A program made the translations under genes and the position numbers. Below are positions 17,130-22,665 of a DNA stretch of 64,000 nucleotides, one piece after another. The stretch is taken from NCBI GenBank assembly GCA_916048095.2, contig OU696577.1:4496001-4560000 (forward strand). Reading direction: 5' to 3'. The notes under the pieces were generated by a model. It made no database searches. It saw nothing but the letters and a program-made list of their open reading frames with translations, and was not told the DNA's origin. This DNA is from Sacculina carcini. Taxonomy: Eukaryota; Arthropoda; Thecostraca; Sacculinidae. Each line of letters opens with the position of its first letter. Positions within the stretch are counted from its first letter, which is position 1.

Positions 17130-18625
17130 GAATACTTTTTCTTTTATATGTGAATGACCTTTTAAATCTAGCAAAAAACTAAGCTTCACCCTTTATGCAG
17201 ATGATACAAATGCAATTTTGGCTAATAATAAAATTGACGATTTACATAGAGAAATTGAAGAAGAATTAAAACATGTACATGAATGGATATTACATAATCA
17301 CTAGAAACTAAATACTAAAAAATCCAAGTTTATATTGTTCTAAAACAGGTCAAGAAAGCACACTTCTCCGACTGTTTATCTAAACGATCAAAAAATGGAT
17401 AGAGTTGGAAAAACAAAGTTCCTCGGCGTCATTATCGACGAAAATATAAATTGGAAAGACCATATTGAGCATGTATTTGGCAAAATTTCCTAAATTTGTG
17501 GTGTTTTATATAAAGTAAGATACAAGTCAACGACAGAAGCCTTAATTAGTATCTACTATACTCTTATATATCCTCATCTAATATATTGTAGCGCTAATTG
17601 GTCTTGCACATGGCCATCCTTCATTCTTAGAATCAAACTTATCCAAAACAGAGTTTTACGATGCATTGCTCACAAAAATAAATTCGGATCTATCAGCGAT
17701 ATTTACCAAAATTTAAAAATTCAACAATTCCACACAATTCGGAACAAATTTTTGATCTTACTCATCAGTAAAAATCTCAAAAGCAAAAACCGTATACACA
17801 ACATATTCACTCGGGAAAGCACTGTAATTAGTACTCGAAGTAGTTATAATATAACTCCACCAAGATTTCGAACAATGTTATTCAAGTACAGTATTCTGTA
17901 TTGCGGGCCGCAGTTGTGGAATGGTTTGCCGATGTCTGTGAAGGAATTGTTATATATTGAGAGCGACGTGGAGAAAATAAAACAAGCTATAAATGTTTAT
18001 TATAAAAATTGATCCACTTGGCTCAGGTCAAAAGTTGTATGATGTAGTTTTGTTTTGCGATCAATTGTTAAGTATTCGTGAATTTATGAATAAATATGAA
18101 TCCGGGAATGAGAATAGATATGTACGAATGTGTTTATGCATGACGTATTGGTATGTTGTGTGTATATATGTGTCTTTATGTGTTTGCTTCTAAAATATTT
18201 GTCTGTTTGCGCATTGTGTGTATGTGTGGGTATGTGTATCAAATGTGTGTATGTAATTGAATACGTGTTAGGTGTTGTATGGTAATATGTGCGGAGACGA
18301 GTATGGAAGTTGTATACGCGTGCACTTTGTTTGCATATAGCTGCATGATTGCGTATTGTTTCATGTGTATATGTGTATGAGAATATGTGTAAGAATATGT
18401 ATGGTAGACTGTGGTAGGTATGGTTGTATGTTTGTTGTGTATCATTGTATATGAATAGTGTTTATATGTGATTGCGCGCGCATGTGTGTGAATGTATGTA
18501 CTTGTGTCTATATAACCTGGCTTGATAGCATTATTTCCACCTGTACAAGTGAAATGTAAGCCTGTCTATGAGCATTAGCTCGACGGGTCTTTTGCCAATT
18601 GTGATATTTATTGTTTGAATATCCG
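17130..18625 (+). pseudogene. LINE-2 family copy: reverse transcriptase end and 3' UTR (right arm of inverted repeat)
   Basis: 5'-truncated RT starting with FLLYVNDLL (17140). It then reads, with a frameshift and stops, FTLYADDTNAILANN (motif C), KTKFLGVIIDENINWKDHI, STTEALISIYYTLIYPHLIY, and RTMLFKYSILYCGPQLWNGL, ending at 18012. The 3' UTR (18013-18625) is AT-rich with TG tracts and contains the GCATTAGCTCGACGGGTC block shared with other copies. Its last 700 bases are inverted relative to 11085-11785. Confidence 0.78.
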
Positions 18626-18990: not shown

Positions 18991-19076
18991 GTTGTATGTG
19001 TGTGTGTGTATGTGTTTTTTTGTTTTGAGACACAAACATATATATTTACAAACGCGTACACATACTCACAATACTA

Positions 19077-20933
19077 CTATGAAACAATGGAGGCGGCGTT
19101 GCCACGAATGACGGCCAGGCTTATTCGCTGCCGAAGCCAGGCCGTCTCTCGCGGCTCCCCTGAACGCTCGCTGATTCTGCCGCCCAGGAGTTTCACGAAG
19201 TCGTCCAGGGATGCCCCCATCACGCCGGTGGTCTCGATGGCCAGCGGCACGAAATCGTACCGCTGGCACAGTTCTGAGTAGCGCCGCCTCTTTCGGTCCT
19301 CTGCTGCCTGCGCTGCTGCCCCGGAAGTGACCGCGCCGTCTAGCAGGTGTGTGCTGCAGAACGTGTTGACGCAGGTCACATCCCAGAGCAGGGACTTGCC
19401 GTGCCGCACCGGGAACACGGTGATTCCGTCCGGTCGGCGGCCGTCGCCGCGGTCCAGGCCTCTTGGCTCCAGCACCGCGGCGATTCCTGCCGACGCCAAA
19501 CTGCGGCGAATGATGTTGTTCAGCGCCGTGTGGCGTGGCAGGCGGCCGGCATTGCGACTGCAGGAGAGGCTATGGTGGCCCCACCTGTCAGTTGTGGCAC
19601 CGCAGCGACACCTGTGCGGCTCTTGCACTGCGGCACCAAGTCGCAACGCCACGCCGACTCGGACGGCTTCGTCTGGCAGCAGCAAGCCGAGGCTGGCGGC
19701 AGGCAGCGCTGACAGCCAAGCGCCATTGTGAGGAGCGGCCGCGGCCAGGAGACGGGCTCGGCACAGCTGGTTCGCGCTTGCGAGGAGATGTTGTTGGCGG
19801 ACGGAGGAAGATCGGTCGTCTAGGTGGCGCTGGTGCAGTGGCTCACTCGTGCTGAAGTCCGGGCACATGGTGTCCACGAACTCCTCGATGGCTGCCACCA
19901 GAGAGCAGGGTCTGTCACCGCTTGTGCGGTGGTTAATGAGACAGACCAAGTCTCTGGTAGCTTCCAGCGAGGCGATGTGGGCAGGTAGTGCCACGTCGCT
20001 CAGCCGTCTGGCTCCGATACATCCGTGGCGGACCGGAAGAGAAACCTGCAGCCACTGTGAGTCTGACATGGCGACATTGCAGCAATCGCTGATGGCCGAT
20101 CTCAGCTGCTCGTCGATGTCACCCATTTGTTCGCGGGCCTGGTACACCGGCGCTGCTCTCAGTAGGTATATTGCCCGCGGAACCGATGCGTACCTGCTGA
20201 GAAAAAACAGCGCCGGGTGCGAGCCGATGTTGACTGAGCGCTGGATCAGCAGGGACGTTTGGCCCTCGATTCTGTTGAGCGCCTCTGCAATGCCGCCCGT
20301 CTGCACTGGTGCGCCGAGCAGATGGAGGTCGGAGAGCTGCGTGACTGTGGCCGAGGCAAGCAGTGATGTGGCGGCCGCGTTCGAGTCTTCGGTATCTGCT
20401 GGTCGTGTGTCAGTGGCTGGACCCAGACTGACAACTTCGCATTTGCCGGTGTTCAGCTCGAGGCCGATGCTGCCGAGGGCCGGGATCAGGCGGCTGACGT
20501 CTGCAAGCACCACTTCCCTGGGGCCTGCCAGTGTGGCGTCGTCCAGGTACCACAGGTTCAATGGCGACTGGAGAGACTGGGCGACTGGATCGACGGCGAG
20601 GGCGAACAAGATGGGCCCGAGCGGGTCTCCTTGCTGTACACCGCGACAGGACCAGATTCGCGTGGTGCCGTGGTACAGTGGGGTTGGCTGGCCGTACGCC
20701 TGCTGGACGAGCGGCAATGCTGCGGGGAAACGACGGGCGACTTCATCGAGCAGCGCGCGCCGACTGATGGTGTTGAAGGCGTTGGTCACACCCAGCTTCA
20801 GCAGAATGTGACCATGCCGACCGTTAGCCTCATTGACGAAAGCGCGCGTGGCGTGCACGGCCGCTTCGCAGCCCAGCTTGCACCCCACTCCGAGCTGAAC
20901 GGGGCGCAACTGCTGTGCGACATGCTGCTGCAT
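19077..20933 (-). pseudogene. Retroelement protein, C-terminal part: reverse transcriptase and restriction-like endonuclease
   Basis: About 610 residues continuing the ORF above in a different frame. RT: LGVGCKLGCEAAVHA, LLKLGVTNAFNTISR (motif A; the catalytic Asp is replaced by Gly, GGT), RGVQQGDPLGPILFALA (motif B) and WYLDDATLAG (motif C, YLDD type). A zinc knuckle CRCGATTDRWGHHSLSC is followed by a PD-(D/E)XK-like nuclease, RPDG...LLWDVTCVNTF and AEDRKRRRYSEL, and then FVPLAIETTGVMG and RISLAVIRGNAAS. The nuclease is expected to open the target for reverse transcription. The loss of Asp in motif A makes this copy inactive. Confidence 0.85.
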
Positions 20934-20967
20934 GTCAGCTCCACTCCGAGCGCAACTGCTGTGCGAC
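20885..20967. repeat. Local duplication that broke the retroelement ORF
   Basis: CGCAACTGCTGTGCGAC occurs at 20905-20921 and again at 20951-20967. CCACTCCGAG-type sequence precedes each, with a 10-base difference between copies. The repeat lies exactly at the frame break, and the two overlapping ORF ends encode the same VAQQLR residues. Confidence 0.8.
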
Positions 20968-22209
20968 TGCGCTCGTCATTTTGCCAGCGATCAGTTTGCT
21001 GGCGAGGCGCCGCAAAACACTGCCGACGGCTACTGGGCGCAGCCCGCCGGACTTCTTGCGCAATGCGATTAGTCGCGCGCTGTAGAATGCGCCGAGCACG
21101 AAGTCCGGGATGCGACCCTGTACACAACAGTTGCACAGCTGCGTCAGTGCCTTCAGCAGCTGGGCACCCGCTTCAGCCGTCTGTGGCGCGATGAGCTTGA
21201 GGAGATGTAGCGGCCGTATTCCGTCCAGTCCTCCCGATGAGCCTTTGGGCATCGAGTGCACGACGGGGCGGATCTCGTGCTCCTCAAAAATCGGCAGTGT
21301 TCCGGCGTCATGCATCTGCAGCTGCTCGTCCGGCAATGCAGGCGGGTGCTTGCGCTCGAGCTCAGTGGTCACTGCCTCGTCGTCCCCGGCCAAGCAGTCG
21401 CTGGATGTCAGCAGGCGGAGCGCTGCACCAATGTCTCCATCGGCGCACGCGGCTCTGACGCCGCGGGATCTGGCCTCGTCTTCGTCGTGCTGTGATCGCC
21501 CTCGGTTTTGTGAGCCCCGCTTCTTCCTTGCTGCTGCGTCGGAGCTGATCGGACCCGTCAAGGCGTATGACAGCAGCTTCCACCAGACCGAGAGGGAGCG
21601 CTGTTCCAGAGCCGCCGTGATGTGCTGAGCGAGGTCGGCTGCCACCCGATGACGCAGCGCACGTGGGACATGCTGACGCACTCGGCGTTGCTGTCTGAGC
21701 TCGGCAAGCGCCGCAGCCAGGTCTGTCGGAATAGTGGTGTTACCGTCGGCTGGCGGGTCCACGTCGCCATCCGCACCGCGGCTCTGCATGCACGCACCGC
21801 AATGCCACACCGGCAAGACGTCGGCTTGTGCCCGGGTGATTCCCACGCAAGTGAGGTGGAATAGTCGCTCACATTGCGCGCAGGAAATCACCCGCCTTCT
21901 GCTGTTGGCCGTGCCGCAGTGATGGCACGGCTGCGCGGGGTCGGATCCCGTGTCTGCGCTGGGGGCCCGCTCGGCCTGAATTCCGACAGCTTGGCAACGG
22001 GCTAGACGGCACGGTGCACACGATCTGTAGTGTGGAGTGAGACGGCAACTGCCTCCACGGTCGCACTGTCTCTCCCGCACGCCGCTGTCCTGGTGTCGCC
22101 GCCAGAATATGTCGCATGCTCTGCAGAGAGCCACATAATTGTGCGTTTGTCGCACTCCGTTTGTTGAGTCACAAACAGCGCACGACAAATGATGTAGCTC
22201 TTGCGTCAT
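20935..22209 (-). pseudogene. Retroelement protein, N-terminal part: nuclear-receptor-type zinc finger, PHD finger, RT N-terminus
   Basis: Starts at the ATG at 22209 (MTQELHHLSCAVC). Residues about 9-75 match a nuclear receptor DNA-binding domain: C-x2-C-x15-C-x2-C (ending CRACDIFWRR, the P-box region), then C-x5-C-x8-C-x2-C ending CAPCRLARCQAVGI. Residues about 92-140 are a canonical PHD finger: CHHC, CAQCERLFHLTC and HCGAC. A linker of about 130 residues follows, then the RT start (SSGGLDGIRPLHLL, YSARLIALRKKSGGLRPVAV). The frame closes at 20935, where a ~46-bp local duplication has broken an originally continuous ORF. DNA or chromatin binding by the two fingers is inferred. Confidence 0.85.
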
Positions 22210-22544
22210 TGCAGGCTACAATTACACGAAACTATATACACACATTATTCAATATACACGAATTTCACTGGCACAATGTGGGTGGTCGATGACTAGAAGG
22301 GTGGGTATGACTAGAAGGGGAAACACTGGCACAATAAACACACTGGCACACTGGGGTATTTACACGCGCAGTCGCTCTGCGTAACGGCCACCGCGATGAT
22401 TGATGATGACAGGTGTCACGGTAAACGTGTAAACACGCGACCGGACACGCTCACAAAATCGCGCGAGCACTTTTAAATACACACCTAACCTTACTGAAGA
22501 GCCGGGCCACAGACACAACCTTCTCCGGTGAAGGACCGAACAAG

Positions 22545-22665
22545 ACTGTGTATGTGTGTACGTATGTATGTGTGTGTATGTGTGTGTGTGTATGTACGTA
22601 TGTGTGTATGTATGTGTGTGTATGTATGTGTGTATGTATGTGTATGTGTATGTGTTCGTATGTGC
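22545..22665. repeat. TG microsatellite at 5' end of the zinc-finger retroelement
   Basis: GTATGTGTGTACG-type array starting right at the element's 5' border, matching in kind the tract at its 3' border (about 18993-19012). Confidence 0.85.

Follow-up and report, generated by a model that had tools for sequence, protein, structure and literature searches.

Layout of the element in the window

The window, which is the whole 64,000-nucleotide stretch of Sacculina carcini DNA analysed here, contains on its minus strand a copy of a non-LTR retrotransposon belonging to family A (Table 1). The initial annotation had placed a retroelement protein at 20935..22209, a span too short for the whole element, which runs from about 22547 to 19027 with an A-rich tail to 19015. 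The first open frame begins with M at 22209 and closes with a stop codon at 20937..20935 (minus strand). The nuclear-receptor-type finger (zf-C4), PHD finger, reverse transcriptase (RT) and nuclease had also been assigned to one unit. This is the case for intact copies elsewhere in the genome, in which zf-C4, PHD, RT, CCHC and a PD-(D/E)xK-like nuclease motif share one frame, but not for the window copy, where 46 extra nucleotides shift the frame inside the RT and the remaining RT and the nuclease motif continue in another frame (20975..19077). Beside the element, the stretch at 17494-18012 (+) resembles by eye a fragment of the final part of a further LINE reverse transcriptase protein.

Table 1. 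Features of the element copy in the window, from its 5' flank to its 3' tail
Feature	Position	Strand	Remarks
AC-rich array in the 5' flank (60 nt preceding the element)	22548..22607	-	19 CA and 0 TG on the element strand
Non-LTR retrotransposon copy, family A, ~3.5 kb	19027..22547	-	Ends set by comparison with other copies; both ends present, frame broken
5' untranslated region, beginning AGTCTTGTTC	22210..22547	-	In-frame stop immediately upstream of ATG
First open frame, 424 aa, encoding zf-C4, PHD, a linker and the start of RT	20938..22209	-	
zf-C4 nuclear-receptor-type DNA-binding domain, residues 9-78	21976..22185	-	Pfam PF00105 and profile matches to receptor DNA-binding domains in PDB
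PHD finger, C4HC3, residues 95-140	21790..21927	-	Pfam PF00628; 8/8 ligand positions present
Second open frame, 632 aa, encoding the remaining RT, a CCHC-like motif and the nuclease motif	19077..20975	-	
Frame-shifting 46 nt	~20922..20967	-	Placed by alignment, approximate; missing in 11/11 aligned family A copies
RVT_1 match	20427..20927	-	Pfam, 44.5 bits; YLDD at 20549..20538
CCHC-like motif C-x1-C-x9-H-x3-C	19560..19610	-	Alignment columns
Restriction-like nuclease motif RPDG ... WD ... K-x3-Y	19269..19436	-	Conserved motif
A-rich 3' tail	19015..19026	-	CA array continues from 19014 downwards

A nuclear-receptor-type finger ahead of a PHD finger

The translated frame contains the cysteine spacing C-x2-C-x15-C-x2-C followed by C-x5-C-x8-C-x2-C exactly as the initial annotation had written it, and its reading of this region as a nuclear-receptor-type finger followed by a PHD finger is borne out by Pfam, with zf-C4 at 27.1 bits (E 6e-6, cut-off 21.1) and PHD at 29.3 bits (cut-off 24). 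Higher zf-C4 scores were obtained for locus L021 (30.4 bits), the database proteins P0009 (34.3) and P0015 (56.3) and family D of the same genome (67.6-68.5). The PHD match was above the cut-off in L021 (28.8) and P0009 (26.4), below it in L027 of family C (21.2), and not listed for P0015. A profile of five intact relatives found solved nuclear-receptor DNA-binding domains with a best E of 1.8e-8, and the less derived fingers of P0015 and family D each matched the androgen-receptor DNA-binding domain at E 1.2e-14 along the whole domain, so that the zf-C4 match is, judged from these profiles, not due to chance.

The element thus shares with nuclear receptors the zf-C4 DNA-binding domain and all eight zinc cysteines, which are invariant across the five aligned proteins. 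It differs from them in the altered P-box region, in the fusion of the finger to a retroelement protein, and in the ligand-binding domain, which Pfam scans did not find in the two window frames, L021, L027, P0009 or P0015.

Affinity to R2-like elements

The RT profile found R2 proteins and structures at E 1.7e-18, with a match covering the RT alone, and the RVT_1 match lies above the Pfam cut-off, as in the R2-like reverse transcriptases of non-LTR retrotransposons that encode a restriction-like endonuclease (RLE). The putative CCHC and PD-(D/E)xK nuclease modules after the RT are recognised from conserved motif columns only, each of the four CCHC-like columns being >98% conserved (110-114 sequences). 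The lack of LTRs, the 3' end, A-rich or simple (most of the copies read have an A-rich tail), and the 5' truncation are likewise those of RLE elements, among which target-specific insertion, found here too, is common though not universal. The likeliest assignment, by analogy, is therefore to a site-selective non-LTR retrotransposon with a restriction-like endonuclease and an R2-like mechanism.

The likeness to R2 and R2-like elements lies in the RT, the single frame, the CCHC-like and PD..D..K motifs, the insertion into a specific repeat and the 5' truncation. The R2 clade proper is marked by a 28S rDNA target together with cysteine-histidine fingers and a Myb motif; the element instead has an (AC)n target and zf-C4 plus PHD. 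According to the text of PMC7650587, a Myb motif accompanies one to three cysteine-histidine fingers at the R2 N-terminus, in contrast to the zf-C4, PHD finger and (AC)n target found here, and the N-terminal part of R2-type proteins is the part that binds nucleic acid. The Togen elements of fish, whose place relative to HERO and NeSL is described as unresolved, are RLE-group elements specific to the same dinucleotide repeat, inserting into (TG)n (PMC4640811). In contrast, the main text of that paper contains none of the terms nuclear receptor, hormone receptor, zf-C4 or PHD, a comparison made by description only.

Families and copies in the same genome

A search of the element's own genome (264 Mb, 43 contigs) gave 517 candidates, of which 99 were scored and all 99 matched. 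The first 48 matches have at least 93% identity, and 28 of them keep a frame of 1014-1050 aa open, uninterrupted by stops within the match, at 94-96% protein identity to the window ORF. Coding DNA identity is 97.1-99.5% among 11 aligned family A copies and 96.5-97.6% between these and the window copy, and these values suggest that family A has been active fairly recently.

Four families in this genome (A-D) carry the finger. Families B, B2 and C show 65%, 65% and 64% protein identity to family A, and the least derived finger is that of family D (L086-L090), in which a PHD-like finger comes next and RT sequence after it wherever the frame remains open. Pairs of zf-C4 and RT matches in frames of equal length, known from domain matches alone, also occur on contigs C24 (1091 aa), C11 (1070 aa) and C8 (1049 aa). 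Other zf-C4 matches have no RT match listed beside them: G000:C9:57495 (+, in a 1140-aa frame), C20:1713915 (-, 1106 aa) and a cluster of four at C22:6177163-6184722.

Several arrangements around individual copies were also observed. In locus L013 (G000:C31:5952000-5961999), one family A copy follows another head to tail at a distance of 3759 bases, with a long (AC)n between them. Another ORF with a cysteine-rich, PHD-like start lies near two copies (L012, 6299-7633, +; L013, 8322-9662, +), perhaps from a different retroelement. The 5' untranslated sequences of L087-L090 (family D) and of L022 and L024 (family B) are alike by eye while their fingers differ strongly, a likeness that may perhaps come from recombination. 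Contig C9 (L067, L068) has TTAGG-type telomere repeats at both ends, as would suit an arthropod, and degenerate TTAGGTAACAC / TTAGGGCACAC arrays lie at some other contig ends (L072, L073, L074, L076).

Insertion into (AC)n arrays

The 3' junctions were counted in 55 sequences, which were the longer matches and not a random sample. Fifty were scorable; L025, L028 and L055 had no readable end, and L036 and the window copy were missed by the anchors, with CA arrays seen by eye. A (CA)4 or longer run lies within 120 nt on the sense strand at 45 of the 50 junctions, compared with 427 of 10776 strand windows (4.0%) in the rest of the window, a background drawn from this one window, which is itself fairly rich in AC. 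CA outnumbers TG at 47 junctions, the exceptions being L041, L050 and L051. Where (CA)4 is missing, L009 and L053 have degenerate CA arrays, L029 has few CA, L050 none and L051 a TG run; (TG)4 or longer was seen at L051 and L030, the latter having CA too. The same 3' flank adjoins L060 and L061, which are possibly not independent insertions.

On the 5' side, both ends could be mapped in 15 copies; (CA)4 or longer occurs within the 60 nt preceding the element in 14 of them and within the preceding 120 nt in all 15. The 5' ends of truncated copies were set by eye where likeness stops, which makes their AC flanks less independent than those of full-length copies. No AC array was present in 600 nt of 5' flank in L023 and L027, the flank of L019 has a gap, and L020 is preceded by family B sequence. 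Among the family D copies, L086, L087 and L090 have an AC-rich 5' flank, and L088 and L089, with one flank in common, show a short AC-rich stretch there. From the 3' junction counts and the 5' flanks together, the element is therefore (AC)n-specific in one orientation, with exceptions.

The exceptional L051 is a family B2-like copy, with its tail running into (TG)n and not (AC)n. Short repeats seen by eye at some junctions were considered as target-site duplications; they are indistinguishable from the array itself, and none is claimed.

Relatives of the element and origin of the finger

With the profile built from five intact proteins (A1), 130 proteins were recovered, 120 of them listed. Among those 120, the precomputed Pfam column gives zf-C4 for two, P0009 and P0015, both from other sources; by eye, P0010 and the crab protein P0005 appear to start with the last part of a zf-C4 finger. 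When other proteins with the finger of P0015 were sought, P0015 alone was found among 12 candidates, and no relative was found in the viral contigs searched.

An RT tree was built from 120 database proteins (P0009-P0128) and five loci, with six short sequences dropped, leaving 119 tips; P0003-P0008 (from the first search), both window frames and family D stood outside it. The zf-C4 carriers (families A to C, P0009 and P0015) fall within one clade of 13 tips with support 1.0, which fits one ancient capture. The initial annotation had held that intact relatives without the N-terminal region would speak against its reading. Inside the clade such relatives were not clearly found: five of the eight database members have no visible finger, of which P0011, P0012, P0014 and P0016 start too late and P0013, a possible exception, has another N-terminus. 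Outside the clade, none of the 106 tips has the zf-C4 pattern, 31 have the PHD pattern and many of the others begin too late for a judgement. PHD is thus more widely spread than zf-C4 in this RT lineage, and these sequences are most simply read as a single addition of zf-C4 to an element that already had PHD. The 31 PHD-bearing relatives outside the clade resemble the element in having the PHD pattern ahead of a related RT and nuclease motif; they differ in having no zf-C4 pattern, and some have a 2A-like motif or a ubiquitin hydrolase domain.

The finger itself was compared with six sequences taken as host receptors (L077, L079-L082, L096; L078, close to L077, was omitted) and three PDB fingers, in a FastTree phylogeny of ~70 residues, a length at which such a tree is weak. 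The element fingers, including those of family D, cluster together, separated from the nine receptor fingers (support 0.95), with P0015 and family D nearest the base of the cluster. The family D finger has 42-46% identity to each of the six host receptors and 43-46% to the three PDB fingers, and with such near-equal values no donor stands out. The proposal that a host DNA-binding domain was captured by the element accordingly gains from both trees, with the carriers in one RT clade and their fingers apart from those of receptors, and we infer the event and its direction from these sequences.

Constraint was assessed by Nei-Gojobori counts. Between families B and B2, dS in zf-C4 is 0.38 and dN 0.04, giving an omega of 0.09 (0.16 in the RT), which shows purifying selection on zf-C4 in this one family pair. 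More distant pairs are saturated or give 0.21-0.50 in zf-C4, and L010 versus L009 within family A gives ~1.1 from 9 differences, too few to judge.

No precedent for a retroelement with a nuclear-receptor finger was found among the titles and abstract starts searched in the open-access literature. The element is a real domain capture in a known kind of element, undescribed as far as the literature was searched, and the nuclear-receptor finger is apparently a DNA-binding module new to RLE elements.

Possible mechanism and role of the finger

In R2 elements, the nuclease nicks one strand of the target, the RT primes on it and the N-terminal fingers grip the DNA. By analogy, it is reasonable to suggest that the present element inserts by R2-like target priming into (AC)n with the captured finger helping to hold the DNA, an account that we regard as probable as a whole. 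An ancestor would have captured a nuclear-receptor-type DNA-binding domain, most likely once and from an animal receptor gene, and the domain would have been set ahead of a PHD finger already present. The nuclease would nick the strand of the (AC)n microsatellite presumed to be cut, the TG strand, and the RT would prime on the nicked 3' end and copy the RNA from its A-rich tail (target-primed reverse transcription), and in the product the sense strand of the element would be collinear with the AC strand. The zf-C4 most likely helps the protein to grip the target DNA, and the PHD finger may add a chromatin contact. The finger may also choose the target, as the initial annotation proposed, and the (AC)n specificity would fit such a role.

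Two alternatives concern the premises of this account. The zf-C4 likeness could be convergence of a cysteine-rich module instead of nuclear-receptor descent, and the low scores of the family A and B fingers (window ORF 27.1 bits, L021 30.4 bits), together with their second module being one residue shorter, would agree with it; family D (67.6-68.5 bits) and P0015 (56.3 bits), however, keep the usual receptor spacing in that module and match receptor DNA-binding domains over their whole length at E 1.2e-14, and convergence is hardly credible. The AC arrays could also have been made by the element, through an AC tail copied or expanded at insertion, instead of existing beforehand. CA does follow the A-rich tail directly in most copies read, and in six of the 15 copies the private 10-mers shared by the two flanks were no more numerous than between copies (own pair ranked 8th to 15th). 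Yet AC arrays stand on both sides of the element, the own pair ranked first to fourth in the other nine (first in L009, L014 and L017), other pairs shared a mean of 6.3 10-mers and own pairs 15.9, a value inflated by the 88 of L014, and most of the low-ranking copies are flanked by pure (AC)n, unusable in this comparison. The ranks thus support insertion into existing arrays, although not in every copy, and we consider element-made arrays improbable.

A weightier alternative accepts the capture of zf-C4 and denies it the choice of target. In this view the site is set by the nuclease, the CCHC motif or the shape of the AC repeat, and the finger does other work, such as attaching to the promoter or RNA of the element itself or keeping the protein in the nucleus. 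P-box residues are the base-contacting residues in receptors. In the element, this region varies (RACDI, PACKI, PACRQ, PSCRE, RSCQV, ASCRE) while families A to D, as far as read, are all in (AC)n, so that the recognition helix may not read the repeat. That fish Togen is (TG)n-specific, with no nuclear receptor, hormone receptor, zf-C4 or PHD in the main text of its description (PMC4640811), points the same way. On the other side, the finger stands at the very N-terminus, a part that binds nucleic acid in R2-type proteins as described in PMC7650587, and it is under purifying selection between B and B2. We see a finger without a part in target choice as a serious possibility, short of an even chance. 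Similarly tentative is the strong version of the targeting role, in which the finger itself reads the repeat. More specifically, the captured domain might have been re-tuned from hormone-response half-sites to an AC microsatellite and paired with a histone-reading PHD finger as a two-part homing device, a proposal that we also hold to be conceivable but not the expected outcome. If re-tuning did occur, families D to A would form a natural series of steps in changing the DNA specificity of a receptor.

It is an open question by what means retrotransposons gain or change their target specificity, and few DNA readers are as well understood as nuclear-receptor domains. A lineage that combines several open-frame families and varied recognition helices with a single target allows domain capture and re-tuning to be tested directly by binding assays, and the element could serve as a test case for the acquisition of new targeting domains by mobile elements. 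An added DNA-binding module of this kind may also be of interest to builders of retroelement insertion tools.

Other terminal modules in the lineage

Further N-terminal modules without zf-C4 occur among the relatives, such as a cysteine-rich stretch (P0038 and P0055, by eye) and two PHD matches (P0017), and from this variety the N-terminus of this RT lineage seems modular. A 2A-like motif ending in NPGP lies near the N-terminus of P0020, P0024, P0029, P0032, P0035, P0042 and P0047. A ubiquitin hydrolase (UCH) domain is present in 14 of the 120 relatives listed (P0017, P0018, P0020, P0022, P0024, P0032, P0034, P0037, P0039, P0043, P0054, P0058, P0075 and P0088), of which P0043 and P0058 are named from the barnacle Amphibalanus, and it is C-terminal in the two that were scanned, P0017 and P0020.
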